From NCBI RefSeq assembly GCF_003290025.1, contig NZ_QNHG01000001.1:241868-304232 (forward strand): 62,365 nt of DNA. The letters run 5' to 3'. The stretch comes from Pseudogemmobacter bohemicus. GTDB lineage: Bacteria > Pseudomonadota > Alphaproteobacteria > Rhodobacterales > Rhodobacteraceae. Of the stretch, positions 38,147 through 62,365 are shown one piece after another (the stretch's first letter is position 1; each line of letters begins with the position of its first letter). Below the pieces are notes generated by a model. It did not search any database, was not told the DNA's origin, and was given only the letters and a program-made list of their open reading frames with translations. Position numbers and translations under genes: made by a program.

Positions 38147-38236
38147 CCGGTTTCTGCCCTTCCTGCCGAATGCGCTCCGATTGTCCCCCGGAGGCGGCAC
38201 GGAGAATAGCCGCAGCGTGGAAGAATGTCACCCAAC

Positions 38237-39426: not shown

Positions 39427-39428
39427 GG

Positions 39429-43238: not shown

Positions 43239-43399
43239 GGACCGGATTTCGGGCAGCGGCAGCAAAGCCCAGGATCGGGCGCGGCCGGGCGGCTTGCAAG
43301 CATAAAGCAGGCAGGCCAAAGGGATGGTGGCAAAGCGTTGCACGGCAGCACTGGTTGCCGATGGACTGGTTGTCGGGGCGGGACAGAAAAGGGCGGATC

Positions 43400-44743: not shown

Positions 44744-44878
44744 ATACGGGGCACGCGGGATGCGGGCTTTTCCGCCCCCTTCGGGCCTCGGCGCTTGTGC
44801 AGCGATGCGCGCCGGCTATGAAGGGGCAAAGCCTGTCGTGACCACGCCTGAATGCGCCCCCTGAGGATGACGAGCCAG

Positions 44879-45448
44879 ATGCAGACCGAAGCCACCGCCC
44901 TTCCCGAAGTGCTCTTGCTGACCCCGCGCCGTTTCGGCGATGCGCGCGGCTGGTTCACCGAGACCTTCAACGCCGCCCGCATGAAAGAGGCGGGGATTGA
45001 TATTGGCTGGGTGCAGGACAACCACTCGTTTTCCGCAGCCAAAGGCACGCTGAGGGGGCTGCATTACCAGTCTGCCCCACATGCCCAGGACAAGCTGGTC
45101 CGCTGCACGCGTGGCGCCATCCTTGATGTGGCGGTGGATTTCCGCGAGGGCTCACCCCGGTTCGGGCAGTGGGTGGCCAGGGAATTGTCGGCCGAAAACG
45201 GCTGTCAGCTTTTGATCCCGCAAGGCTTCCTGCATGGCTTCGTCACCCTGACCCCGGATGTCGAGGTGCAGTATAAATGCTCGGACTTCTATGCGCCTGA
45301 ATGCGATGGCGCGGTGCGGTGGGACGATCCGGATATCGGCATCGACTGGCGGCTGGATGGTGCCGCACCGGTGCTGTCCGACAAAGACCAGGCCGCGCCC
45401 TTCCTGAAAGATGCGCCCCGTCCCTTCCGCTATGAGGTGAAGGCATGA
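44879..45448 (+). CDS. rfbC: dTDP-4-dehydrorhamnose 3,5-epimerase
   Basis: This 189-residue cupin-type epimerase shows the catalytic His in GTLRGLHYQ and the family text [33 protein letters not shown] and [11 protein letters not shown]. It makes the third step of dTDP-L-rhamnose synthesis. The start is uncertain: 44879 (MQTEATALP) best matches homologues, while ATGs at 44867 and 44852 are in frame. The stop overlaps rfbB by four bases (ATGA). Confidence 0.94.
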
Positions 45449-46494
45449 AACTGCTGGTAACCGGCGGCGCAGGGTTCATCGGCTCTGCCGTGGTGCGGCT
45501 TGCGGTCTCGCGCGGGCATAGCGTGGTCAATGTCGATGCGCTGACCTATGCCGCCTGCCTTGAGAATGTCGCGTCGGTGGGGAACAGCCCGCTTTATGGG
45601 TTCGAACAGGCCGATATCCGTGACCGCGCCGCTTTGGACCGGATTTTCGAGGCGCATCAGCCCGATGCGGTGATGCATCTGGCGGCGGAAAGCCATGTCG
45701 ACCGCTCGATCGACGGGCCGGGGGATTTCGTCGAAACGAATATCACCGGCACCTATAATATGCTGGAGGCCGCGCGGAGCTACTGGACCCGCAAGGGCAG
45801 GCCGGAGGGGTTCCGCTTTCATCATATTTCCACGGATGAAGTGTTCGGCTCGCTGCCGCATGATCCTGCGGTGAAATTCACCGAGGAAACGGCCTACGAC
45901 CCGCGCTCGCCCTATTCGGCGTCGAAAGCGGCATCCGACCATCTGGTCCGCGCCTGGGCCGAGACCTACGGCCTGCCGGTGGTGCTGACCAATTGTTCGA
46001 ACAATTACGGGCCCTTCCATTTTCCGGAAAAGCTGATCCCGGTGATCATCCTGAATGCGCTGGCCGGAAAGCCGCTGCCGATCTACGGCGATGGCTCGAA
46101 CATCCGCGACTGGCTTTATGTCGAGGATCACGCCGACGCGCTTTTGCTGGTGGTCGAAAAGGGCCAGCTGAACCGCAGCTATAATATCGGCGGCGAGAAT
46201 GAGCGGACCAATCTGGAACTGGTGCAGACGCTTTGCGCCATCCTGGACCGCAAGCGCCGGAAATCTGCCGGCAGCTATGCCGACCAGATCACCTTTGTCA
46301 CCGACCGCCCCGGCCATGATGCGCGCTATGCCATTGATCCGTCGCGCATCCGCGAGGAGCTGGGCTGGCGGCCCTCGGTCACTGTCGAAGAGGGGCTGGA
46401 GCGTACCGTCGACTGGTATCTCGCCAATGAAGCCTGGTGGCAGCCCTTGCTGGCGCGTCATGGCGTGGGTGAGCGCTTGGGGGTAAAGGCATGA
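45445..46494 (+). CDS. rfbB: dTDP-glucose 4,6-dehydratase
   Basis: This 349-residue extended SDR has the Rossmann motif [14 protein letters not shown], the catalytic region [10 protein letters not shown] and the YxxxK pair in [15 protein letters not shown]. Later conserved text [14 protein letters not shown] and [19 protein letters not shown] is diagnostic. It converts dTDP-glucose to the 4-keto-6-deoxy form, the second rhamnose step. ATGA overlaps couple it to rfbC and rfbD. Confidence 0.96.
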
Positions 46495-47345
46495 AACTGC
46501 TTGTCTTTGGCAAGACCGGTCAGGTCGCGACAGAACTCGCGCGCCGTCTGCCCGCTGATTTCCAGGCGGTGTTTCTGGGCCGCGATGAGGCCGATCTCTC
46601 GGACCCCGCCGCCTGCGTGGCGGCGATTGCCGATGGACGGACCGAAGCCGTGATCAATGCCGCTGCCTGGACGGCGGTTGACAAGGCCGAAAGCGAAGAG
46701 GATCTCGCGACCCGGGTCAATGGCGATGCCCCCGCCGCCATGGCCCGGGCCTGTGCAAAGGCCGGCATCCCCTTCCTGCATATCTCGACCGATTATGTCT
46801 TTGCGGGCAGCGGTGACCAGCCCTTCCGCCCGACAGATCCGGTGGCGCCGCTGGGCGCCTATGGCCGTTCAAAACTGAAGGGCGAGGACGGGGTGCGTGC
46901 CGCAGGCGGCCAGCATCTGATCCTGCGCACCTCCTGGGTGTTTTCCGCCCATGGTGCGAATTTCGTGAAAACCATGCTGCGCCTGGGGCGTGAGCGCGAC
47001 AGCCTGAACGTGGTTGACGACCAGCATGGCGGCCCGACCCAGGCCGGTGCCATTGCCGATGCGCTGCTGTCTGCGGTGCGGGCGATGAAGGCCGGAGCGA
47101 CTGGGGGAACCCATCACTTCTCGGGCGCGCCCGATACGACCTGGGCCGGTTTCGCCCGCGAGATCATGGCGCGCGCCGGCCTCGCCTGCCAGATCAACGG
47201 CATCCCGACCAAAGACTACCCGACTCCGGCGCAGCGCCCGCTGAATTCGCGGATGGATTGTTCGGCGCTGGAGACGGCATTCGGTATCCCGCGCCCGGAC
47301 TGGCGGGCCGGGCTTGACGAGGTTCTGAAGGAGCTGGTGGCATGA
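46491..47345 (+). CDS. rfbD: dTDP-4-dehydrorhamnose reductase
   Basis: This 284-residue reductive SDR completes dTDP-L-rhamnose. It shows the nucleotide loop [32 protein letters not shown] and the YxxxK pair in [10 protein letters not shown]. It overlaps both neighbours by four bases, so the four rhamnose genes form one tightly coupled operon. Confidence 0.95.
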
Positions 47346-48214
47346 AACGCAAGGGCATCATTCTCGCGGGCGGTTCGGGCACAAGGCTTTACCCGATTAC
47401 CATGGGCGTCTCGAAGCAGCTCTTGCCGCTTTATGACAAGCCGATGATCTATTACCCGCTGTCGGTCCTGATGCTGGGCGGGATCCGCGAGATCGCGATC
47501 ATCACCACGCCGGAGGACCAGGCGCAGTTCCAGCGCCTGATGGGCGATGGCAGCCAATGGGGGCTGTCGATCACCTGGATCACCCAGCCTTCGCCCGATG
47601 GTCTGGCCCAGGCCTATCTGCTGGCCGAGGATTTCCTTGCAGGCGCGCCTTCGGCCATGGTGCTGGGCGACAATATCTTTTTCGGCCATGGCCTGCCCGA
47701 AGTGCTGGCAGCGGCCTCGGCGCGCGAGACCGGCGGCACGGTGTTCGGCTATCACGTCTCGGACCCCGAGCGGTATGGCGTGGTTGATTTCGATCAGGAT
47801 GGCAATGTGCGCGCGATCATCGAAAAACCCGCAAAGCCGCCGTCGAATTTCGCGGTGACCGGGCTCTATTTCCTCGACGGCCGCGCGCCGGAACTGGCGG
47901 CGCGGGTGCAGCCCTCGGCGCGCGGAGAGCTGGAAATCGCCGATCTGCTTGAGATTTACCGCGAAGAAGGCAGTCTGATGGTTGAACGGATGGGGCGGGG
48001 CTATGCCTGGCTTGATACCGGCACCCATGGCAGCCTGCTTGATGCCGGGAATTTCGTGCGCACGCTGACCTTGCGCCAGGGGCTGCAGGTGGGATCGCCG
48101 GATGAGATCGCCTTCCGCCAGGGCTGGATTGATGCGGACCAGCTGGCTGCGCGGGCAAAGCTTTTCGGCAAAAACGATTACGGGCGCTACCTGGCCGGGC
48201 TGCCTGCCGATTGA
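47342..48214 (+). CDS. rfbA: Glucose-1-phosphate thymidylyltransferase
   Basis: This 290-residue nucleotidyltransferase makes dTDP-glucose, the first rhamnose step. It has the signature GIILAGGSGTRLYPIT, the activator/substrate region SKQLLPLYDKPMIYYPLS, and metal-site text VLGDNIFFGHG. The C-terminal regulatory part is present (GRGYAWLDTGTH). It is the last gene of rfbC-B-D-A and is followed by a nested palindrome. Confidence 0.96.
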   Translation: MKRKGIILAGGSGTRLYPITMGVSKQLLPLYDKPMIYYPLSVLMLGGIREIAIITTPEDQAQFQRLMGDGSQWGLSITWITQPSPDGLAQAYLLAEDFLAGAPSAMVLGDNIFFGHGLPEVLAAASARETGGTVFGYHVSDPERYGVVDFDQDGNVRAIIEKPAKPPSNFAVTGLYFLDGRAPELAARVQPSARGELEIADLLEIYREEGSLMVERMGRGYAWLDTGTHGSLLDAGNFVRTLTLRQGLQVGSPDEIAFRQGWIDADQLAARAKLFGKNDYGRYLAGLPAD

Positions 48215-49072: not shown

Positions 49073-49783
49073 ATGTCGATCATTTCAGCAAAGACCGCCG
49101 GGGCTGCGGGAGTGGCCCCTGTGATCAGAACGGCGCCGGACAAGCAGGAGCCGGTGGTGAACCTGCCCGGTCGCGGCGGGATCTATCGCCATGTCTTCAA
49201 GCGGGCGCTGGACCTTTTCGCGATCCTCGCGGCGGTGCCCATCGTGCTGCCGGTGGTTCTGGGGCTGGCGATCCTGGTGGCGCGCGATGGCGGCAGCCCC
49301 TTCTACAGCCAGATGCGCGTCGGTAAGGGTGGTCGCTCGTTCCGGATGTGGAAGCTGCGCTCGATGGTGATCGACGCGGATCAGCGGCTCGACTCCTGGC
49401 TTGAAGCCAATCCCGAGGCGCGGGCGGAATGGGACAGCACGCAAAAGCTGCGCAATGACCCGCGCATCACCGCCTTTGGCCATTTCCTGCGCCGCTCGTC
49501 GCTGGATGAGTTGCCGCAGCTGTGGAACGTTTTCATCGGCGATATGAGCCTTGTCGGCCCGCGCCCGATGATGTTGAATCAGCGCGATCTTTATCCCGGC
49601 ACCGCTTATTATGCGTTGCGTCCGGGCGTGACCGGCTACTGGCAGACCGCAGGGCGCAACCGCACGACCTTTGAGGCGCGGGCGGAATATGATGCGGTCT
49701 ATGAGGAGCGCCTGTCGCTGGCCACCGATCTTGGCATCATGGCGCGCACTGTGGCTGTTGTCCTGCGCGGCACCGGCTGCTGA
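49073..49783 (+). CDS. Undecaprenyl-phosphate sugar-1-phosphate transferase (ExoY-like)
   Basis: This 236-residue protein belongs to the bacterial sugar transferase (PHPT) family that loads the first sugar phosphate onto undecaprenyl phosphate. A membrane segment at about 45-65 is followed by the family motifs FYSQMRVGKGGRSFRMWKLR, LRRSSLDELPQLWNVFIGDM, SLVGPRP and PGVTGYWQTAGR. It is the short, single-helix type like ExoY. The sugar it transfers cannot be read from sequence. It starts polymer assembly for this locus. Confidence 0.92.
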   Translation: MSIISAKTAGAAGVAPVIRTAPDKQEPVVNLPGRGGIYRHVFKRALDLFAILAAVPIVLPVVLGLAILVARDGGSPFYSQMRVGKGGRSFRMWKLRSMVIDADQRLDSWLEANPEARAEWDSTQKLRNDPRITAFGHFLRRSSLDELPQLWNVFIGDMSLVGPRPMMLNQRDLYPGTAYYALRPGVTGYWQTAGRNRTTFEARAEYDAVYEERLSLATDLGIMARTVAVVLRGTGC

Positions 49784-50180: not shown

Positions 50181-51434
50181 TCAGCTCAGCCGTATCCGGC
50201 CCCGGCCCGAAGGGCGGATTTCCGGCAGGGCGATGATCGGGCGCAGGCCCAGTTCACGCTCCATCTGCGCCGAGGTGCGGATCACCGGTTTCAGCAGATC
50301 CAGCAGGAAGGCGAGGATCAGACCGCCCAGAAGCCCCGCAATCGCCCCTACCGCGACAAACATCTTGCGGCGCGGCCCGTCGGGATGTTCGGGCGTGATG
50401 GCGCGGTCAAGAATGCCGAAGCGTTCGCCCTGCTGGCGTTCGGCAAGGCGCAGCTGGGCCTCGGCCTCGGCCTGCGCATCGGAGGTCTGGTCGAAATTGC
50501 GCTGGATCTGGCCCAGGTCCCGCTCAAGATCGGCAAGGCCGCGTTCGGCCACCGCGACCCCGGCAAGGCCCGCCTCGATTGCGGCAGCACGCGCGTTCAG
50601 AGCATTTTTCTGACCGGCGATCAGCACGGTCTGGTCATCCAGTTCGCGCAGCCGCTGGCGATCGGTCGGGCGCAGCGTCTCGCGGGCCGAGATGCGGCGG
50701 CGCTCCTCATCCACCAGCAAAAGGTCACGGTCCAGGTCGCGCAGATCGGTCTCGATGGTGGTCAGTTCCTCGCGCCGGGTCGCCGAGACCGGCGGCAGCA
50801 TTTCGGCATTGGCATTGCGCCAGGCGATGATCTTCGCCTCCTGCGCCTGGATCTCTGTCGAGAGAACCGACAGCCGCTCGCTGTGGAAGGTATAGCTTTC
50901 CCGCGCGCGCTGCAGTTGTCCTGAGGCCGAGAGGTCCACCACGCTTTGCGCGAGGTCATTGGCGATCCGCGCGGCGTTTTCGGCATCGCCGAAAGTCGCG
51001 CTGATCACCACCGCCGACACCTGGGTCGGCTGGCCATAGGCCGGATCGCCCGAGACCTCGACCGTGTTAAAGCGGATGGCGGCGCGTAAAGCGGTCACCT
51101 TCGCCTCGGTCGAAAGCGCCGGCAGATCGCTGTAAAGCCGGTGCCGCTCGATGATCGCGACCAGGTTCTGCCGCGTCGTCAGCCGGTGTTGCAGCGATTG
51201 CACAAGCTGCGCCGAGCCCGAGGCCTGGGCGGCATCGGTGGGCGCGCTGCCGGCGACCGGCACCCGCACCTGGGCGGTCTGGATCTCGATCGAGGCCCAG
51301 GCGGTATAGCTGTCGGGCCGCCGCTTGGCATAAGCGGCCGCCAGCGCCACGGCCAGCAGCGCGCAAAGGGCGATCAGCAAGCCGCGCCGTTTCAGAAAGC
51401 TGAGAAGATCCTCGATCGTGCGCAGATGCCCCAT
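50181..51434 (-). CDS. Polysaccharide chain-length regulator (Wzz/ExoP N-terminal type)
   Basis: This 417-residue polysaccharide co-polymerase has a membrane helix near the N-terminus (about 18-35, GLLIALCALLAVALAAAY) and one near the C-terminus (about 360-382). Between them lies a long periplasmic coiled-coil domain. There is no kinase domain, so it is the split form. The cognate ATPase gene lies immediately upstream, ten bases away. It should set polymer length together with the Wzy-like polymerase and export machinery. Confidence 0.87.
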   Translation of the reverse strand: MGHLRTIEDLLSFLKRRGLLIALCALLAVALAAAYAKRRPDSYTAWASIEIQTAQVRVPVAGSAPTDAAQASGSAQLVQSLQHRLTTRQNLVAIIERHRLYSDLPALSTEAKVTALRAAIRFNTVEVSGDPAYGQPTQVSAVVISATFGDAENAARIANDLAQSVVDLSASGQLQRARESYTFHSERLSVLSTEIQAQEAKIIAWRNANAEMLPPVSATRREELTTIETDLRDLDRDLLLVDEERRRISARETLRPTDRQRLRELDDQTVLIAGQKNALNARAAAIEAGLAGVAVAERGLADLERDLGQIQRNFDQTSDAQAEAEAQLRLAERQQGERFGILDRAITPEHPDGPRRKMFVAVGAIAGLLGGLILAFLLDLLKPVIRTSAQMERELGLRPIIALPEIRPSGRGRIRLS

Positions 51435-51443
51435 TGCCGCCCC

Positions 51444-52421
51444 TCAGCCCCGCCCGATACCATGCCCGAACCAGCGGCCCAGCAGGCCCTGGCCCGCCAG
51501 CAGACCGCGATCCTGGGCGCGGTTCAGCACCACGGCCAGCAGCGGGATCCGGCCCTCGAACATCCGCTCGCAGGCGGTGATATCGGCGGCGGTGGTGCTG
51601 GTGCCGTCGACCACCAGCAGCACGGCATCGACCAGGCCCGTCAGCGCGATCATATCATCATAGTCCAGCGCCGGCGGCGTATCGAAAAGCTGGATATCGG
51701 GCTGCAGCAGGTCGCTGGCCGATTGCAGTGCCGCCGCGCAAAGCGGGTCCTGCAGCGTCTCGGCCGGGCGGGCGACGCGCTCGCTGTTCAGCGCCAGCGC
51801 GAGGTTGGAGCCGATGCGGCGGAACTGACCCTCAAGCGGCTGCTCTCCCAACAGGAATTCCAACAGCTGCGGCGCGGTGCTTTGGGCGAAAAGCCCGGCC
51901 TGGCGCGGGCGGCGCAGATCAAGATCCATCAGGAGCGTCCGGCAGGATGGCAACCGGCCCAGAGACAGCGCCAGATTGGCGGCGACATAGCTTTTGCCGC
52001 AGCCGGCGCGCGGCGAGGTGATGGCCAGCCGGCTCATCCCTTCCTTTGCCATCGCCTGGGCGATGCGGGTGCGCAGCATGTCGAAATAGCGGGTGATCTG
52101 GTGGTGTTCCGGTTTCAGGAACAAACCGTTTCTGATCAGCCTGGCGGGGTCGGCCTGCATCTCGCCAATCGATTCCCAGACCTTTGACGGGTTCGGCCCG
52201 GCAAAGACCGAAGGCGGGATGGTGATCTCGCGCCCGGTGCGCTGGTCCAGCGCGATGGGCAGGCTGATGCGCGGATGGCCGGGCCGGAACAGCGAGACAA
52301 GGCTGCCGCGCGCCGTGGATTCTGCGTTGCGATCCTGGTCGTTATCTTCAGCGCCCATCAGGGGAAATCCCGTATCCAGGGGTTTTGAACCGAAAGGGCC
52401 AGGGATATTGTGGCGGCTCAT
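51444..52421 (-). CDS. CpsD/CapB-type ATPase, tyrosine-kinase-like
   Basis: This 325-residue protein has the P-loop SPRAGCGKSYVAANLALS, a Walker A' motif LLMDLDLRRPRQ and a Walker B QLFDTPPALDYDD, as in bacterial tyrosine kinases that control capsule export. The first 110 residues are a variable extension. The C-terminus (LLGRWFGHGIGRG) lacks the usual tyrosine cluster. It pairs with the separate Wzz-type protein just downstream, an arrangement like the split CapA/CapB of Gram-positives. Confidence 0.87.
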   Translation of the reverse strand: MSRHNIPGPFGSKPLDTGFPLMGAEDNDQDRNAESTARGSLVSLFRPGHPRISLPIALDQRTGREITIPPSVFAGPNPSKVWESIGEMQADPARLIRNGLFLKPEHHQITRYFDMLRTRIAQAMAKEGMSRLAITSPRAGCGKSYVAANLALSLGRLPSCRTLLMDLDLRRPRQAGLFAQSTAPQLLEFLLGEQPLEGQFRRIGSNLALALNSERVARPAETLQDPLCAAALQSASDLLQPDIQLFDTPPALDYDDMIALTGLVDAVLLVVDGTSTTAADITACERMFEGRIPLLAVVLNRAQDRGLLAGQGLLGRWFGHGIGRG

Positions 52422-52764: not shown

Positions 52765-53808
52765 ATGAGAGAGGAACCGCCCATACCCCCGTCGCTGCCG
52801 GATCCGGCTGCTGCGCCGCTCGTGATGCCGGGGGGCGGCGGGATCGTCGATGCAGTGGTGATCGGCCGCAATGAGGGCAGCCGGCTCGCCGTCTGCCTCG
52901 CCTCGTTGCGGGGGCAGGTGCGGCGGCTGGTCTATGTCGACAGCGGCTCGACCGATGGGTCCCGGGCGCTGGCCCGGGCGGCGGGCGCGATTGTGGTGGA
53001 TCTGGACCTTTCGCGCCCCTTCACGGCGGCAAGGGCGCGCAATGCCGGGGTGCTGGCGCTGATCGTCGAGGGGAATGAGCCGGATTTCGTGCAATTCGTC
53101 GATGGCGATTGCGAGATGGTGCCGGGCTGGGTGGCGCGGGCGCTTCAGGGGTTTTGCGACCATCCCGGCGCGGTGGTGATCTGCGGGCGGCGGCGGGAAC
53201 GGTATCCCGGGGCCTCGGTCTGGAACCGGCTTTGCGACCGCGAATGGAACACGCCCATCGGTGAGGCGCTGGCCTGTGGGGGCGATGCGCTGATGCGGCT
53301 GCGCGACTTCCAGTCGGTGCGCGGCTACCGTGAGGATCTGATCGCGGGCGAGGAGCCCGAGCTGTGCCAGCGCCTGCGCCGGGCGGGCGGGCATATCTGG
53401 CGGATCGACGCGGACATGGTGCTGCATGACGCCGCGATGACGCGGCTCTCGCAATGGTGGCGGCGGACGAAACGCGCGGGTTATGCCTTTGCCGAAGGCT
53501 ATGCGCTGCATGGGCGCGGCCCGGATCGCCACTGGCGGCGCGAGACGCTGCGCGCTCTGGCCTGGGGCGCCGCGCTGCCGCTGGTGGTGATCGTGCTGGG
53601 GCTGATCCATCCCGCCTTCTGGCTGCTGGTGCTGATCTGGCCTTTGCAGATGCTGCGCCTTGCCTGGGCCTGGCGGCATGAGGGGCGGACGGGGATTGAA
53701 GCGGCGATTTTCACCGTATTGGGGAAATTTCCCGAGGCGCTTGGCGCGCTTGGCTATCTGCGCGACCGGCTCCGGGGCCACAAGCGCGGGCTGATCGAGT
53801 ATAAGTGA
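52765..53808 (+). CDS. Family 2 glycosyltransferase, membrane-associated
   Basis: This 347-residue GT-A protein opens its domain at about residue 28 (VDAVVIGRNEGSRLAVCLAS) and shows YVDSGSTDGSRALA and the metal motif FVDGDCEMV. A hydrophobic C-terminal part (LPLVVIVLGLIHPAFWLLVL and on) suggests two or three membrane helices. It likely extends the lipid-linked repeat unit. The start is uncertain, since the first 25 residues are Pro-rich and the ribosome site is weak. Confidence 0.85.
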   Translation: MREEPPIPPSLPDPAAAPLVMPGGGGIVDAVVIGRNEGSRLAVCLASLRGQVRRLVYVDSGSTDGSRALARAAGAIVVDLDLSRPFTAARARNAGVLALIVEGNEPDFVQFVDGDCEMVPGWVARALQGFCDHPGAVVICGRRRERYPGASVWNRLCDREWNTPIGEALACGGDALMRLRDFQSVRGYREDLIAGEEPELCQRLRRAGGHIWRIDADMVLHDAAMTRLSQWWRRTKRAGYAFAEGYALHGRGPDRHWRRETLRALAWGAALPLVVIVLGLIHPAFWLLVLIWPLQMLRLAWAWRHEGRTGIEAAIFTVLGKFPEALGALGYLRDRLRGHKRGLIEYK

Positions 53809-53821
53809 CCGTTCCGCCTGC

Positions 53822-54574
53822 CTATTCCGACCTTTGCCGCCAGGCCTTGACCGCCTCCTCCGGCAGGATCGCGAAACAGGCGGCATAGCGCGGGATCAGC
53901 CGGCGCGGCGAAGACAGCGCCCGCCAGGCCCATTCCATCGCGATCTTGCGGACCCAGGCCGGCGCGCGGCTCTGGTCTCCGGACAGAAACTCCACCCCCG
54001 CGCCGACCGAGGCGAAGCCGGTCTGCGGCGCGAGGCTGCGGCCAAGGGCGGCGAAGCGCTCTTGCTTCGGGGCACCAAGTGCGATCAGGCAAAGCCCCGG
54101 CCCAAGGGCCGCCAGATCCGCCAGCGCCTTGCGGGCCTCCGGCCCTTCGGGGTCGAACCCCATCGCCGGCGCGATCAGCAGCCCCTGGCGGTAGCCGGGG
54201 ATCTCGCGCGAAAGCCGCGCGCTTGCCGCCTCCAGCGCGGCCCCGGTCGCCCCCAGCATCGAGACCGGCAGCCCCGCATTGGCCGCAAGGCCGCAGAGCG
54301 GCAGCACGAGATCCGAACCCGGCATCAGATCGACCGGCTTTTTCGCCAGCGAGGACAGCCAGACGATCGGATTGCCATCGGCCACGACCATATCCTGCCC
54401 GGCATAGGCGGCGCGAAATTTCGGGTCGCGCCGCAGCTTGACCAGGTGGTCGACATTGATCGTTGCGAGCGCAAAGCCTTCGCCACGCCGGAAACGTGTC
54501 GCCACATCGCGCAAAAGCGCCGCGCGGCTGGCATGGGTCACCTCGATACGGGTGTCGCTGAAGGTAAAGCGCAA
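53822..54574 (-). CDS. WecG/TagA/CpsF-family glycosyltransferase
   Basis: This protein of about 250 residues matches the GT26 family: FALATINVDHLVKLRRDPKF, ADGNPIVWLSSL, RMPGSD-like LMPGSDLVLPL, VSMLGATGAALEA, and the closing VGAGVEFLSGDQSRAPAWV. Family members add N-acetylmannosamine-type or similar sugars to lipid carriers. A TTG at 54574, preceded by AGGATCACCCGC, gives the length and N-terminus usual for the family. The upstream ATG at 54706 adds 44 Arg/Pro-rich residues that look non-coding. Confidence 0.85.
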   Translation of the reverse strand: MRFTFSDTRIEVTHASRAALLRDVATRFRRGEGFALATINVDHLVKLRRDPKFRAAYAGQDMVVADGNPIVWLSSLAKKPVDLMPGSDLVLPLCGLAANAGLPVSMLGATGAALEAASARLSREIPGYRQGLLIAPAMGFDPEGPEARKALADLAALGPGLCLIALGAPKQERFAALGRSLAPQTGFASVGAGVEFLSGDQSRAPAWVRKIAMEWAWRALSSPRRLIPRYAACFAILPEEAVKAWRQRSE

Positions 54575-54812
54575 GCGGGTGATCCTGTCAGGCGGCGGCG
54601 CGCGCAGCCTAACCTGCCTGCGTGCCGGAGGCGACAGCGAAAGGCGCTGGCCGCGCGCGGCAACACTTTGTTTCCACGCGCGCGGCTTCGGCGCCGGGCG
54701 GGGCATCGTGGCGCCGGGCGCGGCACCATGCTAAGGAAGGGGCGAAAACAGCCCCCCGCCCTCCACCCCCGACGCCAACCCAACACGCCAGTGCAGAACG
54801 GATCCCGGCCGG

Positions 54813-56210
54813 ATGTCATCGACGATTGCCCTGCTGGCGCTCTTGTCCTGGCCCTTCGTGGTCTGGATCTTTTACAACCGGATGGGGCCGGGGCGGGCGC
54901 TGATCTGGTCGGTGCTGGGCGGCTATATGGTGCTGCCCGAGCTGGCGAAAATCAATCTTCCCATGCTGCCCGACCCGGACAAGCATATGCTGCCGGCGCT
55001 GGCGGCGGCGGTGTTGTCCTGGCTGATGCTGGGGAAAAGCCTGCCGGTCTTCACCGGGAATATGCTGATCCGGGTGCTGGTCGCGGGCTTCCTGATCTCA
55101 CCGGTTTTCACGGCACTTCTGAACATGGACCCGGTGGTTCTTGGCTATGGGCGCGATATTCAGGGCATGCGGATCTACGATTCCATCGCCATTGCCGGCA
55201 CCGAGGCGATGTATCTCCTGCCGCTGTTCCTTGCGCGCCGCGACCTCGCCACGCCCGAGGCGATGCGCGACCTGCTGATGGCGCTGGTGATCGCAGCGCT
55301 GCTTTATACCGGGCCGATCCTGATCGAGACGGTGATGTCGCCGCGGCTCCATATCTGGGTCTATGGCTATTTCCAGCATGACATGTCCCAGGCGGTGCGT
55401 TTCGGCGGCTGGAGGCCGTTTGTCTTCATGCCGCATGGGCTTTGGGTGGCGTTTTTCGTGCTTTCCTGCCTGATCGCGGCGGGAGTGATGCTGCGGCTCG
55501 GGCCGGCGCCGGCACGGGTCTGGCAGCTGCCGGTCTTCCTTTTGACCTGCGCGCTGTTGATCCTGTGCAAGAGCTTTGGCCCCATCGCCTATGCGCTGGC
55601 TGCGGCGCCGCTGGTCTTTCTGGCAAAGCCCCGCCTGATCCTGGTGATCGCCGGGCTGCTGGCGGTGGTGGTGATCCTGTATCCGCTGCTCCGGGGCCTG
55701 CATCTGGTGCCGGTCGATTATATCGCGAGCTTTGCAGGTGATCTCAGCGAGGACCGTGCGCAGAGCTTCGGCTACCGGCTGATGAACGAGGATCTGCTGC
55801 TTGAGCGCGCCGCTGAACGCCCGCTGTTCGGCTGGGGCGGTTACGGGCGTGGCTTTCTTTACGACCCCGATACCGGCGCGCTGGAGACGGTGGCCGATGG
55901 CGCCTGGATCATCCGCATCGGTGCTTTCGGCTGGATCGGCTATATCGTGCAATTCGGGCTTTTGTGCCTGCCGCTCTGGCTCTTGTCGCGCGAGGCGCGG
56001 CTGAGGCCCGGCTCGGTCGGGCTGCCGGCGGCGGGGGTGGCGCTGATCCTTGGGCTGAACCTTGTTGATCTCTTGCCCAATGCGACGCTGACGCCGCTGA
56101 CCTGGCTGATGGCGGGCGCGGTGCTGGGCATGGCCGAGGCGCTGCGCAATCAGCGCGAGGCGGCGGGTGCTGCGCTGCGGCAAAGCCAGCCGCGCCGCAC
56201 CATTATCTGA
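54813..56210 (+). CDS. O-antigen ligase/Wzy-like polysaccharide polymerase
   Basis: This 465-residue protein has about 11-12 hydrophobic segments, with a larger loop at about 310-355 (SEDRAQSFGYRLMNEDLLLE, then RPLFGWGGYGRGF). The loop text resembles the Wzy_C/O-antigen ligase domain, where G-W-G-G-type motifs are common. It should polymerise repeat units in the periplasm, completing the flippase/co-polymerase set. It is followed after 270 bases by the polyketide synthase gene on the same strand. Confidence 0.82.
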   Translation: MSSTIALLALLSWPFVVWIFYNRMGPGRALIWSVLGGYMVLPELAKINLPMLPDPDKHMLPALAAAVLSWLMLGKSLPVFTGNMLIRVLVAGFLISPVFTALLNMDPVVLGYGRDIQGMRIYDSIAIAGTEAMYLLPLFLARRDLATPEAMRDLLMALVIAALLYTGPILIETVMSPRLHIWVYGYFQHDMSQAVRFGGWRPFVFMPHGLWVAFFVLSCLIAAGVMLRLGPAPARVWQLPVFLLTCALLILCKSFGPIAYALAAAPLVFLAKPRLILVIAGLLAVVVILYPLLRGLHLVPVDYIASFAGDLSEDRAQSFGYRLMNEDLLLERAAERPLFGWGGYGRGFLYDPDTGALETVADGAWIIRIGAFGWIGYIVQFGLLCLPLWLLSREARLRPGSVGLPAAGVALILGLNLVDLLPNATLTPLTWLMAGAVLGMAEALRNQREAAGAALRQSQPRRTII

Positions 56211-56479
56211 GTGCTTTTCCCGGAGCTGCCGGAGAACCTGGCTCGGTTTTGCGCGAAACAGGGCGCAAATGTGGCTTTTTTGCGTCAGTATTGTGGCATT
56301 GTTGCCCGCCCGGATATGAACTGGTCACGCCCCCGGCAAGGGTATGAGTTTGCCCGGGATTGCGCTAGATTAACGCGGGTAATCAATGCGCTGGCAGGGG
56401 AGTGTCTGTCGGGGCTGGAGCAATGGCTGTTTCCTCCCCATATCTCTCCCCAGGTCTCTCTGCCGGCAGAACCGAAGTG

Positions 56480-59400
56480 ATGGATGATATGACGCGCAGA
56501 CCCCAAGGTGTGGCCGCGACCGACATTGCGATTGTCGGCATGGCCGCGCATTTGCCGGGGGCGGGCGATATCAATGCCTTCTGGGACAATCTGCGCGCCG
56601 GGGTGGAATCGATCCGGGTGCTCTCACGCGAGGAATTGCTGGCGGCGGGGGAAAGCGCTTCCAGGATGGCGCGGCCGAATTATGTGCCCTCGGCCGCCGT
56701 GCTGGACGGGTTCGAGACATTCGATGCCGAGTTCTTCGGCTTTTCCCCGAAAGAGGCGGCAATCCTTGATCCGCAGCACCGCCAGTTCCTGGAGGTCGCC
56801 TGGGAGGCGCTGGAAAATGCCGGCCACCCGCCCGAGGCCTTCCCCGGCTCGATCGGGGTCTGGGCCGGCTGCGGCATGGGATCGTATTTCTATTTCAACC
56901 TTTGTACGAACCCCGATCTGGTCGAAGAGACCGGCATGTTCCTTCTGCGCCATACCGGCAATGACAAGGATTTTCTGGCCACCCGCGCCAGCCATATCCT
57001 TGATCTCAAGGGCCCTTCGGTCAATGTGCAGACCGCCTGCTCGACCAGCCTTGTCGCCGTACATTACGCCTCGCAGGCGCTGCTGAACGGCGAATGCGAC
57101 ATGGCGCTGGCGGGTGGGGTGACCATCGAGCTGCCCCATGCGCGGGGCTATCTGTTCCAGGACGGTGAGATCCTGTCGCCGGACGGGCATTGCCATGCCT
57201 TTGACCACCGGGCGCAAGGGACGGTGTTCGGCTCGGGCGCGGGCTGTGTGGTGCTGCGCCGCGCGGTCGATGCGATCCGGGACGGCGATCATATCTGGGC
57301 GATCCTGAAGGCGACCGCGATCAACAATGACGGCGCCGCCAAGGCGGGCTATCTCGCGCCCTCGGTCGATGGCCAATCGGCCTGTATTGCCGAGGCCCAG
57401 GCGCTGGCCGGGGTCACCGCAGATACGGTGACCTATATCGAATGCCACGGCACCGGAACATATCTCGGCGACCCGATCGAGGTTGCGGCGCTGACCGATG
57501 CTTTCCGCGAGACGACGGATGCGGTGGGCCATTGCCGCATCGGCTCGGTCAAGACGAATATCGGCCATCTCGATACAGCGGCGGGGGTTGCCAGTCTGAT
57601 CAAGGTGGCGCTGTCGCTGCATCACCGCGAATTGCCGCCGAGCCTCGGCTATGAGGCGCCGAACCCGTCGATTGATTTTGAGACCTCGCCCTTTCGCGTC
57701 AATGACCGGCTGGTGCCCTGGCAGGCACCGATCCTGCGGGCAGGCGTCAACAGCCTTGGCGTCGGCGGCACGAATGCCCATGCGGTGCTGGAGGAGGCGC
57801 CTTTGCGGCTGGCATCCGAGGACAGCGACTGGCCATTCCAGCCGCTGGTGATCTCGGCCCGCTCGAAAGCTGCGCTGGAGGGCCAGGCTTTGCGACTGGC
57901 CGCCCATCTGCGCGCCCATCCTGACCAGAAGCTGGCCGATATCGCCTGGACCCTGAAAGAGGGCCGCCGCGCCTTCGAGAAGCGCCGGGTCATCGTGGCG
58001 GAAAGCCATGATCAGGCGGCGGGCCTGCTGGAAGGCGCCAATCCGCGCCTTGTCTTCAACCATGACCATCTGGGCGACAACCCCGAAGTGGTCTTCATGT
58101 TCCCCGGTGGCGGCGCGCAATTTGCCGGCATGGCCCGCGATCTTTACGAGACCGAGCCGGTCTTCCGCGACTGGATGGACCGGGGCCTCGCGGTGCTGGA
58201 GCCGCAGCTGGATTACGACATCCGCGCGCTCTGGCTGCCCGAGAAGGGCGCCGAAGAGGCGGCGGATCAGGCGCTGAAAAAGCCCTCGGTGCAGCTGCCG
58301 CTGATTATGATCACCGAATTCGCGCTGGCGAAGCTTTATGAAAGCTGGGGCGTCACCCCCGCCGCGCTGATCGGCCATTCGATGGGCGAGAACACCGCCG
58401 CCGCTTTGGCGGGCGTGATGAGTTTCGAGGATTGCATCGGTCTTGTCCTGCTCCGCGGCCGGCTTTTCGACAGCGTGGCGCCGGGGGGGATGCTTTCCGT
58501 GCCGCTGCCCGAGGCGGATCTGGGGCGCTACTGGGCCGATGATCTCGATATGGCCTCGGTCAATGCGTCGGGGCTTTGCGTGGTCTCTGGCCCGGATGCG
58601 GCGCTTGACGCTTTGGCGGCGCGGCTGATGGTGGATGAGGTCGAGACGCAGCGGATCGCGATCAACATCGCCGCCCATAGCCGTATGCTCGATCCGATCC
58701 TGGAGGATTTCGGCGCCTATCTGCGCGGCATCCGGCTGTCGGTGCCGCAAATCCCGATCATCTCGAACCGCAGCGGCGCGGTGCTGACGGATGCCGAGGC
58801 GACCAGCCCCGATTACTGGGTCGCGCATCTGAGGAATACGGTGAATTTCCGTGCCGGGCTGGCGGCGCTGATGGCGGTTCCGGGCCGCGTCTATATGGAG
58901 ATGGGGCCGGGCCGCGCGCTGTCTTCGCTGGCGGGGGCGAACGGTGTGGCGCCGGGCCAGGTGGTGCCGGCTTTGCGTCATCCGGAACAGAGGATCGCCG
59001 ATGATGCCTGGCTGATCGGCTCTGTCGCGCGGCTCTGGGCCTGCGGGGTTGCGGTCGATTGGGGCCAGATCTGGGGTGGGCGGGCGCGTCAGCGCGTGGC
59101 GCTGCCCGGCTATGCCTTTCAGCGCAAACCGTTTTTTATCGCACCGGGTGAGGCGGCGCCGGCCCAGGCAGAGCTGCCGGCGCGGATCGAAGATCTCGCG
59201 AACTGGGGCTGGAAGCGCCATTGGTCGCCGGCGCTTGCCGGGTTTGACATTGACGATCTGGACGATCTCGCCGCGGCAAGCTGGCTGGTCTTTGCCGATG
59301 ATGCCGGGCTTTGTGCGGCGGCTGCCACGCGGTTGCGCGAGGCCGGGCATCGGGTGATCCTTGTGACCCCCGGCGACAGTTTCCGCCGCCAGAGCGAGGA

Positions 59401-62365
59401 CCGCTATACACTCGCGCCCGAGCGCGGGCTGGAGGGGTATGAGGCGCTGATCCGCGATCTGGCTGGGCGCGGCATCGCGCCGGCGCATATCCTGCATGGC
59501 TGGCTGGTGACCAGGGATGAGAGTTTCCGCCCGGGCTCCAGCTTCGCGCAGAGGCTGGTTGAGCAGGGGTTCTGGTCGGCGTTTTTCCTTGTGCAGGCGC
59601 TGGCGGGGGAGAACCTCGCCGGAGAGGCCTTTGTCGGGGGTGTCAAGCTGACCTTCCTGACCAATGGCGCGGCGGCGGTGAAAGGCAGCCGGCCCGGCTG
59701 GCCGGAAAAGGCGCTCTTGCGCGGGCCGGTGCTGGTAGCGGCAAAAGAGCTGCCGGGGCTGGCGCTGGCGCAGCTGGATCTGGAGCTGCCGCAGCTGCGG
59801 CGCGGTGAGGCGCTGCCGGAGGCGCTGGTCGCGGCTGTGATCGAAGAGGCGCTGTCTGCGGGCGGTGGTGTCGCCGCCCTGCGCGGTGCGCGGCGCTATG
59901 GCGAAGGCTTGCGCCCGGCGCCGCTGCCGGAGGCGGGCTTTGATTTTCCCGATGGCGCGCATGTGCTGATCACCGGCGGCTTTGGCGGCATCGGCCTGAC
60001 CCTGGCGGAAGAGCTGATCCGGCGGCACCGCGCGAAGGTGACGCTGATCGCCCGCTCGCGCCTGCCCGAGGGCGCGGCGCGGCGGGCCTGGCTTTCGGGC
60101 CATGCGCCCGGCGATGCGGTCTCGCGCCGGATCCTCGCGGTGGAACGGCTGGAGGCGCTGGCGCAGGAAAGCGGCGGCAGCATCGCGCTGGCTTCGGCCG
60201 ATGTGGCCAATCTCTTCGAGATGCGGGCGGCGGTGGAGGCGGCGGCCCTGCACTCGGGGCCGGTGGATGTGGTGATCCATGCGGCGGGGATGGTGGCGGA
60301 TGGGCCGATCCTCGGCAAGGATCCGGCCAGGGTAGAAGAGGTTTTTGCCCCCAAGCTGCACGGCACCGGGGTGATCGACCGGCTGTTCCCGGATGGGATG
60401 CTGAAGCTTCTGGTGCTGTTTTCCTCGACCTCGACGGTGACGGGGCCGGCGGGGCAGGTCGATTATGTGGCGGCGAATGAATATCTGAATGCCTTTGCCG
60501 AGGCGCGGGCCGGGGGTGCAACCCGGGTGGTGGCGCTGGATTGGGGGATCTGGCAGGGCGTCGGCATGGCTGCCGAGAGCCTGTCGGACCGGCTGGGTCG
60601 CGAGGAGACGCCGGAGGTGCCGGTGCGTCAGCCGATGCTGCGCAGGGCGGGCTTTGATGCCGCCGGCAACCGGCTGTTTACCGGCGTCGTGGAGTGCGGG
60701 CAGTGGATTTTTGATGGCCACCGCACCCGGGAAGGCCAGGCCTTGCTGCCGGGAACCGGCTATCTGGAGCTTGCGGCTGAGGCCTGGGCTTTGCAGGAGG
60801 GCGGCGACGGGGCGGCGCCGGGGATCGGCGCGGGGTTCGGGATCCGCGATCTGACCTTTTTCGCGGCGCTGGATCTTGCCGAAGACGAGCGCCGGGCGCT
60901 GCGGGTGCGGCTGCGCCGCAGCGATGAGGGGTATGATTTCGAGGTGCAGACGCTTGTGCCCGCTGGTGGCCGCGAGGGCTGGGCGACCCATGCCACCGCG
61001 CGGCTTCTTGCTCTGACCGCAGAAGAGGCCGCGATCGCGCCGGGGATCGACCCCGGCGCGATCGCCGCGCGGCTTCGCGCGCCCGAGGCAGGCAGGCCGG
61101 CGGAGGGCGGGGACAGTGCTGCGGGGGCGGAGGCCTGGCTCGCCAGTCCGCAGGAGGCCTTTCTGGACTTTGGCCCGCGCTGGCGGGTGCTGCGTTCGCG
61201 TGTCTTTGGTGCGGGCGAGGGGCTTGCGTTTTTGTCGCTGCCGGTGGCGTTCCGGCAGGAGGCGGTGGAGGGGGGCGGAACAGCCACCCTTCAGCAGGAC
61301 GCAGCGGAGAGCTGGCTCTTGCATCCGGCGCTGATGGATCTGGCGACTGGCTGGGCGATGGATCTGATCGCGGGCTATCAGCCGGACCGGCTCTGGGTGC
61401 CGCTTTCCTATGGCGCGGTGCGGGTTTTCGCGCCGCTGACAGCCGGGGTGATCAGCCATATCCGCAATGCGGACGACAATCGGGTCGACCGGCCGACTGC
61501 CGTTTTCGACATTACCCTCGCCGCCCCGGATGGCCGTGTGCTGGTCGAGATCGCGGGCTTCACCATCCGGCGGCTCGATGCGGCTCTGGCTTTCCCGAAA
61601 CCCGATCCGCGCCTGCTGGAGGCACCGGAAGGGGGCCCCGCGCGGGCGCTGTCGCCGGCCGAAGAGCGGCTGATGCTGGCCTTACGCCAGGGCATCCGTC
61701 CTGAAGAGGGCGCCGGGGTTTTCGGCCGCGCGGTGAATGCAGGCCTGTCGCAGGTCCTGGTCTCGTCGCTGGATCTGCCGGCGCTGATCCGCCAGACCGC
61801 TGCCATTGTCGCGGCCCGTAAATCCGGCCAGAGTTTCGAGCGCCCGGATCTCGACACGGATTACATCGCGCCGCGCGACGATATCGAGCGCAGCCTGACC
61901 GGGTTCTGGCAGGATCTGCTGGGGGTCTCCCAGGTGGGGGTCGAGGATAATTTCTTTGACCTTGGCGGCCACAGCCTGATCGCGGTCAGGCTTTTTGCGA
62001 TGGTGAAAAAGACCTGGTCGGTCGATTTCCCGATCTCGGTTCTGTTCGAGGCGCCGACCGTGGCGGCCTGTGCAGGGCTGATCCGCGAGGCGGCCGGTAT
62101 CGTCGGCCTGCCGGAGGCGGGCGGTGGCGATGCGACCCCGGCGCCGGATCAGGGCGGCGCTGCGACGGGGACGGGCGCGCTGGCAAAGGCGGTCAAACCC
62201 GCGCGCCGCTTTACCCATCTGGTGCCGATGACGCCGGAGGGCGGCCGCAATGTGGGGCAGAATGCGGGGAAAACGCCGTTCTTCCTCGTCTCCGGCATGT
62301 TCGGCAATGTGCTGAACCTGCGGCATCTGGCGCAGCTGGAAGGGCGCGACCGACCGTTTTACCCT
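56480..62365 (+). CDS. Type I polyketide synthase (partial, runs off window end)
   Basis: 1,962 codons are present with no stop before the window edge. Domains in order: ketosynthase (about 14-440; Cys187 in TACSTSL, His323 in ECHGTGTY, His363 in TNIGHLD); acyltransferase (about 520-840; Ser634 in GHSMGEN); a KR structural half and ketoreductase (about 900-1370; TGGFGGIGL, Ser1315/1316, Tyr1329 in DYVAANEYLN); dehydratase double hot-dog (about 1390-1690; His1414 in DGHRTREGQALLPG, Asp1620 in HPALMDLATG); ACP (about 1790-1870; Ser1832 in DLGGHSLIAV); and the beginning of a thioesterase (FFLVSGMFGNVLNLRHL). All key residues look intact. KR before DH is not the usual order. The start could be 56480 or the ATG at 56489. 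It follows the polymerase gene of the exopolysaccharide locus. Confidence 0.93.
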   Translation, partial: MDDMTRRPQGVAATDIAIVGMAAHLPGAGDINAFWDNLRAGVESIRVLSREELLAAGESASRMARPNYVPSAAVLDGFETFDAEFFGFSPKEAAILDPQHRQFLEVAWEALENAGHPPEAFPGSIGVWAGCGMGSYFYFNLCTNPDLVEETGMFLLRHTGNDKDFLATRASHILDLKGPSVNVQTACSTSLVAVHYASQALLNGECDMALAGGVTIELPHARGYLFQDGEILSPDGHCHAFDHRAQGTVFGSGAGCVVLRRAVDAIRDGDHIWAILKATAINNDGAAKAGYLAPSVDGQSACIAEAQALAGVTADTVTYIECHGTGTYLGDPIEVAALTDAFRETTDAVGHCRIGSVKTNIGHLDTAAGVASLIKVALSLHHRELPPSLGYEAPNPSIDFETSPFRVNDRLVPWQAPILRAGVNSLGVGGTNAHAVLEEAPLRLASEDSDWPFQPLVISARSKAALEGQALRLAAHLRAHPDQKLADIAWTLKEGRRAFEKRRVIVAESHDQAAGLLEGANPRLVFNHDHLGDNPEVVFMFPGGGAQFAGMARDLYETEPVFRDWMDRGLAVLEPQLDYDIRALWLPEKGAEEAADQALKKPSVQLPLIMITEFALAKLYESWGVTPAALIGHSMGENTAAALAGVMSFEDCIGLVLLRGRLFDSVAPGGMLSVPLPEADLGRYWADDLDMASVNASGLCVVSGPDAALDALAARLMVDEVETQRIAINIAAHSRMLDPILEDFGAYLRGIRLSVPQIPIISNRSGAVLTDAEATSPDYWVAHLRNTVNFRAGLAALMAVPGRVYMEMGPGRALSSLAGANGVAPGQVVPALRHPEQRIADDAWLIGSVARLWACGVAVDWGQIWGGRARQRVALPGYAFQRKPFFIAPGEAAPAQAELPARIEDLANWGWKRHWSPALAGFDIDDLDDLAAASWLVFADDAGLCAAAATRLREAGHRVILVTPGDSFRRQSEDRYTLAPERGLEGYEALIRDLAGRGIAPAHILHGWLVTRDESFRPGSSFAQRLVEQGFWSAFFLVQALAGENLAGEAFVGGVKLTFLTNGAAAVKGSRPGWPEKALLRGPVLVAAKELPGLALAQLDLELPQLRRGEALPEALVAAVIEEALSAGGGVAALRGARRYGEGLRPAPLPEAGFDFPDGAHVLITGGFGGIGLTLAEELIRRHRAKVTLIARSRLPEGAARRAWLSGHAPGDAVSRRILAVERLEALAQESGGSIALASADVANLFEMRAAVEAAALHSGPVDVVIHAAGMVADGPILGKDPARVEEVFAPKLHGTGVIDRLFPDGMLKLLVLFSSTSTVTGPAGQVDYVAANEYLNAFAEARAGGATRVVALDWGIWQGVGMAAESLSDRLGREETPEVPVRQPMLRRAGFDAAGNRLFTGVVECGQWIFDGHRTREGQALLPGTGYLELAAEAWALQEGGDGAAPGIGAGFGIRDLTFFAALDLAEDERRALRVRLRRSDEGYDFEVQTLVPAGGREGWATHATARLLALTAEEAAIAPGIDPGAIAARLRAPEAGRPAEGGDSAAGAEAWLASPQEAFLDFGPRWRVLRSRVFGAGEGLAFLSLPVAFRQEAVEGGGTATLQQDAAESWLLHPALMDLATGWAMDLIAGYQPDRLWVPLSYGAVRVFAPLTAGVISHIRNADDNRVDRPTAVFDITLAAPDGRVLVEIAGFTIRRLDAALAFPKPDPRLLEAPEGGPARALSPAEERLMLALRQGIRPEEGAGVFGRAVNAGLSQVLVSSLDLPALIRQTAAIVAARKSGQSFERPDLDTDYIAPRDDIERSLTGFWQDLLGVSQVGVEDNFFDLGGHSLIAVRLFAMVKKTWSVDFPISVLFEAPTVAACAGLIREAAGIVGLPEAGGGDATPAPDQGGAATGTGALAKAVKPARRFTHLVPMTPEGGRNVGQNAGKTPFFLVSGMFGNVLNLRHLAQLEGRDRPFYP

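Follow-up and report, generated by a model that had tools for sequence, protein, structure and literature searches.

The stretch of DNA analysed here (the window; 62,365 nucleotides, C1:241868-304232 of a 5.6 Mb genome) comes from Pseudogemmobacter bohemicus and contains, from position 38467 to its end, an exopolysaccharide (EPS) locus delineated by open reading frames (ORFs) and by Pfam and NCBIfam matches. The last gene of this locus within the window encodes a type I polyketide synthase (PKS; 56402-62365, + strand) and lies directly behind the ORF of a Wzy-like polymerase (54813-56210) on the same strand, as a first-pass annotation had noted. The neighbourhood of the PKS is conserved well beyond chance. 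Comparison of the sequences involved suggests that the gene belongs to a cassette that probably builds a small formyl-glycine-derived polyketide group for the polymer of the same locus. Below, G numbers denote genomes and L numbers denote locus stretches; L006 corresponds to C1:296000-315999, and a window position equals the L006 position plus 54132.

The open frame of the PKS begins with a GTG at 56402, although a later codon may be the true start. Pfam places a ketosynthase (KS; 56519-57652, residues 40-417, PF00109/PF02801), an acyltransferase (AT; 58091-58909, residues 564-836, PF00698), a ketoreductase (KR; 59960-60556, residues 1187-1385, PF08659), a dehydratase (DH; 60632-61582, residues 1411-1727, PF21089/PF14765) and an acyl carrier protein (ACP; 61895-62080, residues 1832-1893, PF00550) in this order along the + strand. 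A DH that follows the KR departs from the textbook domain order of PKSs, and the same Pfam scan found no enoylreductase (ER) domain. The first part of a thioesterase (TE) can be read by eye before the window ends. A run of 1,412 N bases begins at the very next base (L006:8234-9645), inside the thioesterase, which resumes beyond the gap and ends at L006:10406. The length of the gap is probably an estimate, because the sequences on both of its sides read like one thioesterase.

Among 32 loci examined, including our own, 27 encode the PKS and TE as a single gene of 2,097-2,215 amino acids; the other five comprise a cut contig, a split gene, our own gapped gene and two genes with a mis-picked start. 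These architectures and the Pfam domains agree with the earlier description of a single-module reducing PKS with its own TE. The catalytic motifs are kept in relatives. In 28 aligned sequences, the KS cysteine, both KS histidines and the ACP serine motif were present in all 28, the AT motif GHSMGE in 27, the KR nucleotide motif in 26, and the DH motifs HxxxG (searched as a loose pattern) and HPALxD in 27 and 23, respectively. The TE-type serine motif was found in 27, our own gene being cut at the gap before this serine. As the C-terminal half of the protein was found in 104 of 295 genera of the family at E ≤ 1e-100, the PKS is not a chance ORF. A frame of 1,611 codons antisense to it (56624-61459, - strand) was rejected as a shadow of the high-GC PKS gene on the basis of GC content by codon position and of the Pfam matches on the opposite strand.

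Beyond the gap the PKS is followed by a GT2 glycosyltransferase gene (L006:10403-11431), by a gene for a non-ribosomal peptide synthetase (NRPS) of 1,533 residues (L006:11433-16034) and by a phosphopantetheinyl transferase (PPTase) gene that seems to start inside the last codons of the NRPS and ends at L006:16656. We refer to this set, PKS-GT2-NRPS-PPTase, as the cassette. Because its genes overlap or nearly touch, they very likely form one operon; they are tightly packed, and by their sequences the carrier and catalytic motifs are intact. The first-pass annotation had suggested extending the contig to the right to look for further genes such as a PPTase, and this one is indeed present, accompanied by the end of the TE, the GT2 and the NRPS; what comes next is an FdhD gene and formate dehydrogenase genes on the other strand. 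The locus therefore seems to end at the PPTase, and ORFs downstream of it on the + strand were discarded as locus genes as they overlap these opposite-strand genes. For the GT2, no sequence match in the PDB was found at E 0.01, whereas in a structure search with the P. hezensis homologue the 50 matches listed were glycosyltransferases of low identity.

In the NRPS, a formyltransferase is followed by about 200 unassigned residues, an adenylation (A) domain carrying an inserted luciferase-like monooxygenase, and a peptidyl carrier protein (PCP). Pfam detects the formyltransferase, and a predicted model of residues 1-530 of the P. hezensis homologue (mean pLDDT 91.5) matches the formyltransferases Fmt and ArnA. 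A remnant condensation (C) domain was considered for residues ~291-474, where the alignment was colinear but not significant (hhalign E 0.11). The monooxygenase occupies residues 745-1095, between the A4 and A5 parts of the A domain, and the protein passes the curated cut-off of TIGR04020, the MupA/Atu3671 family of luciferase-like monooxygenases, at 474 bits against a required 244; the best solved relative of this domain is PuwE (6ket). In an alignment of the 30 sequences longer than 1,400 amino acids (out of 32), the N-H-D residues of the formyltransferase, the A4 motif and the carrier motif GGHS were each kept in all 30. The substrate pocket of the A domain, read by eye as D-I-L-S-x-G-M-I-W-K, had its W in 30 and its M in 29 (F in G059). 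By the specificity code of A domains, this pocket is predicted to select glycine. The best-scoring solved A domain was that of LgrA module 2, the glycine module of linear gramicidin synthase.

The organization of this system in other genomes suggests how the two large proteins cooperate. A KS immediately follows the loader in Aliiroseovarius (L192), Methylobacterium bullatum (L189), Deinococcus actinosclerus (L188), G586 (L182) and G644 (L183). The simplest interpretation is thus that the NRPS loads the line and that the PKS forms the module after it. The PKS protein of L192 extends into C-A-PCP-TE and that of L188 into a C domain, whereas the EPS-version PKS ends in a TE; the parsimonious product of the latter is therefore one glycine-derived unit extended once. 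The first-pass annotation had proposed that the PKS could make a beta-hydroxy or enoyl acyl group. This account is incomplete, as the PKS is not alone: its starter is most likely supplied by the formyltransferase-A(Gly)-monooxygenase-PCP protein, whose gene is the second one past the PKS and lies outside the window. A simple fatty-acyl product, which is unlikely for that reason, was rejected.

To define how widespread the cassette is, we used a family sample of one genome per genus (295 genomes, sampled evenly from a larger set). Of these, 109 had the NRPS, 104 the C-terminal half of the PKS and 99 the GT2. PKS and NRPS occurred together in 104 genomes, the NRPS alone in 5 (G034, G137, G196, G199 and G325, with GT2 present in G137), the PKS alone in none and neither in 186, and every PKS-positive or GT2-positive genome was also NRPS-positive. 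The class sample yielded 7 of 385 genomes. These are our own and four others of its family, together with G586 and G644, which match best in the A-monooxygenase-PCP part and have a diverged formyltransferase next to it. In the phylum sample, 16 of 398 genomes were positive, and the family accounts for ten of these. Among 2,610 matching plasmid records, 17 covered at least 80% of the NRPS in one place.

Gene order was examined in 80 named loci, which represent the best of 576 confirmed relatives and are hence biased towards close ones. In all 66 loci with at least 9 kb of upstream sequence, the NRPS is directly preceded by a same-strand PKS, with the GT2 between them in 54 of these, and the PPTase follows the NRPS in 57 of the 66 loci (a partly different set) with at least 8 kb downstream. 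Some cassette loci carry additional genes of related type. In two Paracoccus loci (L194:1-3812 and L040:653-5289) a second amino-acid-activating NRPS directly precedes a WecB/TagA/CpsF glycosyltransferase of the same polymer locus, and perhaps adds a second aminoacyl group to the polymer. Annotated acyltransferases in Paracoccus liaowanqingii (L194:8538-10508) and Ruegeria sp. (L193:2592-6320) are candidates for transfer of an acyl group to a sugar.

The adjacency of polymerase and PKS noted in this window is clearly not confined to this genome, and the association of the cassette with the polymerase is stronger than that with the priming transferase described below. Homologues of the Wzy family of the window were sought in 80 of the 109 NRPS-positive genomes (chosen, and all PKS-positive; mostly fragmented or damaged cases and our own genome were left out) and in 80 of the 186 NRPS-negative genomes (taken in handle order, with four skipped). 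All 80 cassette-positive genomes encoded this Wzy family, compared with 4 of the 80 cassette-negative ones (Fisher p about 4e-41, a value that ignores kinship). Six of the left-out positives raised the former count to 84 of 86, with Wzy present in G137, G149, G199 and G325, and two NRPS-negative genomes from cassette-bearing genera (G011 and G985) also lacked Wzy, making the latter 4 of 82. Wzy and NRPS are within 30 kb of each other in 66 of the 80 positives, 52 to 420 kb apart on the same contig in 6 and on different contigs in 8, which in draft genomes need not mean a large distance. As Wzy in G343, one of these, is 13 kb from the PKS on the PKS contig, though not on the NRPS contig, 13 of the 80 are not close by.

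Other polysaccharide genes show a similar association. At least 37 of 60 cassette-positive genomes have a priming transferase no more than 30 kb from the NRPS, against an expectation of 2.5 given how many such genes each genome contains; the 37 is a lower bound, as it is based on 150 of 172 matches. At least one core EPS gene was present in the flanks of 56 of the 59 named loci for which both flanks were available. Together with the Wzy counts, these numbers uphold the earlier placement of the PKS in an EPS locus, where it probably serves the polymer. The surrounding sugar genes and their order vary among the 32 loci. The rhamnose genes of the window, which had been seen as part of the system, illustrate this: rml genes were near the cassette in only 12 of the 32 loci (our own, nine of ten genus-mates, G046 and Ruegeria conchae) and in none of the 59 named loci with at least 9 kb on both sides, in flanks of only ~10 kb. 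A general link to rhamnose polymers was thus abandoned. Wzy polymerases are usually specific for their own repeat unit. That one Wzy family tracks the cassette therefore suggests that the cassette product is part of what this Wzy recognizes.

Polysaccharide genes also accompany more distant versions of the system. In the Hyphomicrobiales (Shinella L191, Aminobacter L039 and Neorhizobium L190), the PKS and NRPS genes are in divergent orientation, without the GT2 in between; these loci contain flippases and glycosyltransferases, and L190 and L191 also have priming transferases. A plasmid of Deinococcus actinosclerus (CP029777.1; L188), from another phylum, carries a separate formyltransferase gene, an A-monooxygenase-PCP NRPS and the PKS ending in a C domain, and this set sits inside a polysaccharide locus. 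Aside from these comparisons, L192 (Aliiroseovarius sp. M344) and L038 (Ruegeria conchae) both have a gene for the VPLPA-CTERM exosortase XrtD in the vicinity of their loader and PKS genes.

Collectively, these observations lead us to propose that NRPS and PKS form a two-protein assembly line for the EPS of the same locus, with the PKS as its second half. The NRPS would activate glycine, its formyltransferase domain would formylate the PCP-bound glycine, and the inserted monooxygenase would oxidize the glycyl group, most likely at the alpha carbon and less likely at the nitrogen. The KS would then take this starter through a single malonyl extension, followed by reduction by the KR and dehydration by the DH, giving a C4 group such as an oxidized 4-formamido-3-hydroxybutanoyl or crotonoyl unit. 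The TE would release the product or transfer it to a sugar of the lipid-linked repeat unit, the GT2 would add a sugar to the modified unit, Wzx would flip it and the dedicated Wzy would polymerize it. The repeat unit would always contain the product, either as a decoration or as one of its components, and this would account for the shared retention or loss of Wzy family and cassette despite the variation of the sugar genes around them. A functional link of some kind between cassette and polymer is well supported and much more likely than the mechanism in full, from synthesis of the group by the assembly line to its incorporation into the polymer; to this full mechanism we give about an even chance of being correct. 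More tentatively still, about one-third of the sampled genera of the family may make a secreted sugar-peptide-polyketide hybrid polymer in which an NRPS-PKS line supplies one residue of the repeat unit and a formyl-glycine-derived polyketide is obligatory in the unit that the dedicated Wzy recognizes, a bolder generalization that we consider possible but doubtful. Should the monooxygenase act on nitrogen, this hybrid polymer could conceivably bind metals.

Attachment of the PKS product to the polymer is the step we infer, and a free secreted molecule is a real rival. The cassette could produce a small molecule (a signal, a metal binder or a defence compound), perhaps glycosylated by the GT2 and either secreted or trapped in the matrix, with the EPS neighbours reflecting a surface-attached lifestyle. 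We regard this as possible, if rather unlikely. Several observations weigh against placement in the polymer, and some of them fit a free product well. The PKS ends in a TE, and the products of TEs are often free acids or macrocycles; the TE of one relative matches NRPS TEs with better scores than it does the Pks13 TE, and the best-scoring solved KS-AT shares its PDB entry (8xjz) with a chain named peptide synthetase. In Aliiroseovarius (L192) the same type of loader, paired with its PKS, stands at the head of an NRPS line, and the 34 kb covered there contain no polysaccharide gene, so that the pair can serve ordinary natural products. A TolC-family gene in Aminobacter and a type I secretion pair in Shinella lie near the PKS and could export a free product, and earlier authors listed the cluster among secondary-metabolite clusters in the passages that deal with it (PMC4337385, PMC5014874). 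Twelve of the 66 named loci lack a GT2 gene between PKS and NRPS, as do the Hyphomicrobiales versions. In six of the 12 (L124, L130, L135, L145, L148 and L160) a GT2 homologue lies ~9 kb downstream on the opposite strand, and GT2 may therefore be a polymer glycosyltransferase that moves around the locus. Wzy of the same family occurs in four cassette-negative genera (G129, G132, G144 and G156) and is missing from two NRPS-positive genomes (G034 and G196), three of the 59 loci (L140, L154 and L177) show no core EPS gene within the flanks covered, the co-occurrence counts ignore the species tree, and neither a structure of such a polymer nor a mutant was found. A free molecule, on the other hand, would not require one Wzy family to track the cassette even when the two lie apart, and seven annotated records with PKS and polysaccharide genes had no exporter or receptor gene in common when compared by eye, with no dedicated search.

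The same tracking by Wzy bears on two further explanations. By analogy with RkpA and WcbR, the PKSs of capsule loci, the product might serve the polymer as a primer or as an anchor at its end, instead of being a group of each repeat unit. The passages of PMC3908369 on rkpA and wcbR make PKSs in capsule clusters an established precedent, but the lack of an ER domain and the glycine-type loader speak against a lipid-like chain, and a terminal group would not obviously dictate which Wzy is used; this role appears improbable. Less probable again, to the point of being very hard to credit, is that cassette and polymer genes are mere neighbours on a shared genomic island, without functional link. 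EPS loci can collect cargo genes, and the variable sugar genes and gene order would fit such an origin. Against it stand a Wzy association of 80 of 80 against 4 of 80 that includes 13 genomes in which the genes are not close by, the joint absence of Wzy and cassette from G011 and G985, and the similar associations in Hyphomicrobiales and Deinococcus. Inclusion of the cassette product in the repeat unit, or its attachment to that unit, remains the reading we prefer.

The remainder of the EPS locus in the window provides a complete Wzx/Wzy-type pathway, with priming transferase, flippase, polymerase and chain-length control. The priming sugar-phosphate transferase (Bac_transf; 49073-49783, +) matches PF02397 at 3e-57 and the Wzx-type flippase (43355-44743, +) matches Polysacc_synt_3 at 1.1e-46. 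The call of the Wzy-like polymerase (54813-56210, +) draws on position and conservation as well as on a Wzy_C match (2e-4) under the Pfam cut-off. Chain length is probably controlled by a Wzz-type determinant (50181-51434, -; Wzz 2.6e-8, and pepcterm_ChnLen 3.8e-28, under cut-off) with a Wzc/CpsD-like tyrosine-kinase ATPase (51444-52421, -; pepcterm_TyrKin 4.8e-19, under cut-off). The dTDP-L-rhamnose operon comprises four genes, rmlC-rmlB-rmlD-rmlA (44852-48214, +), with best Pfam matches between 3e-70 and 9e-99. Four glycosyltransferases complete the set: a GT2 enzyme (41159-41992, +; Glycos_transf_2 4.8e-19), an EpsE-like GT4 enzyme (41976-43343, -; Glycos_transf_1 2e-32, and EPS_EpsE 3.7e-60 but under its cut-off), an EpsD-like GT2 enzyme (52765-53808, +; Glycos_transf_2 2.2e-15, and EPS_EpsD 7e-12, under cut-off) and a WecG/TagA/CpsF (GT26) enzyme (53822-54706, -; PF03808 7.6e-38). 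The strand of the GT4 and GT26 genes is also indicated by GC content by codon position, which, with the opposite-strand Pfam matches, identifies the + strand ORFs 41928-43409 and 53834-55381 as their respective shadows.

At the left end of the locus, a 319-residue SGNH-like protein (38467-39426, +), probably exported and possibly a polymer esterase, was named by eye from SGNH-like motifs and a signal-like N terminus, and a glycoside-hydrolase-like protein of 580 residues (39423-41165, +), also probably exported, was named by eye from motifs in its translation. Pfam and NCBIfam scans gave no match for either ORF, so that, of the full polymer pathway described earlier, the priming transferase, rml genes, flippase and chain-length control are confirmed by profiles while these two names stand on visual motifs. 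Homologues of the glycoside-hydrolase-like ORF were present in the cassette loci of many relatives in the 32-locus comparison. Beside the locus lies a gene for a heparinase II/III-like protein (36380-38200, -) that adjoins a purH-like gene (34744-36357, -). To the right of the locus (L007:2734-7409, -) are a formate-dehydrogenase-type flavin subunit gene, a LysR regulator and an acyltransferase-3 protein.

Several parts of this system resemble known ones. The passages of PMC4337385 on the subject describe a cluster of NRPS, PKS, glycosyltransferase and PPTase genes as a conserved feature of the Roseobacter lineage, present in 28 of 57 genomes sequenced earlier, and call its product uncharacterized and worth elucidating; PMC5014874 states the same conserved cluster for Leisingera sp. 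JC1, and both papers trace it to Martens et al. The cassette consists of the same four genes. Contigs of Leisingera ANG-Vp and JC1, strains that these papers discuss, and of ANG59 are among our 80 named loci and match the GT2 as well, an identification made at the level of contigs. In the parts of those papers that deal with the cluster, no product, domain anatomy or link to a polysaccharide polymerase is given, and among the matches listed from open-licence papers we found none that ties the four-gene set to a polysaccharide. Elsewhere, PKS and NRPS genes are described for Phaeobacter inhibens, one pair having locus tags two apart (in the relevant part of PMC4062626), and PKS and NRPS-like clusters without known relatives for Tritonibacter mobilis (in that of PMC11225332).

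For the loader, the nearest described counterparts are the formyl-glycine loading modules of conglobatin (CongA) and oxazolomycin (OzmO), in which, according to the passages of PMC4504003 that describe them, a formyltransferase and a glycine A domain start a PKS, as predicted for the cassette. Unlike these, the cassette has a monooxygenase inserted in its A domain, a stretch of ~200 residues before that domain and a single PKS module with a terminal TE. An oxazole-forming cyclase was not noticed in the scanned neighbourhood, no profile search having been aimed at cyclases. The monooxygenase belongs by cut-off to the MupA/Atu3671 family (TIGR04020), with a substrate that is here only predicted. 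RkpA and WcbR, compared by description only, are likewise type I PKSs within capsule or surface polysaccharide clusters, of rhizobia and Burkholderia, and differ from the cassette in that the passages of PMC3908369 describing them mention no NRPS loader. If the cassette serves the polymer, this could be the reason that the Roseobacter cluster still lacks an assigned free metabolite. With the tie to Wzy, the search for the product of an orphan cluster becomes a question that can be tested directly on a surface polymer and, in a widespread family of bacteria, assembly-line enzymology would be connected with surface glycans. Thus, the four-gene orphan cluster was already known, and our analysis adds to it the tie to a particular Wzy, the anatomy of the loader and the spread to Hyphomicrobiales and Deinococcus.

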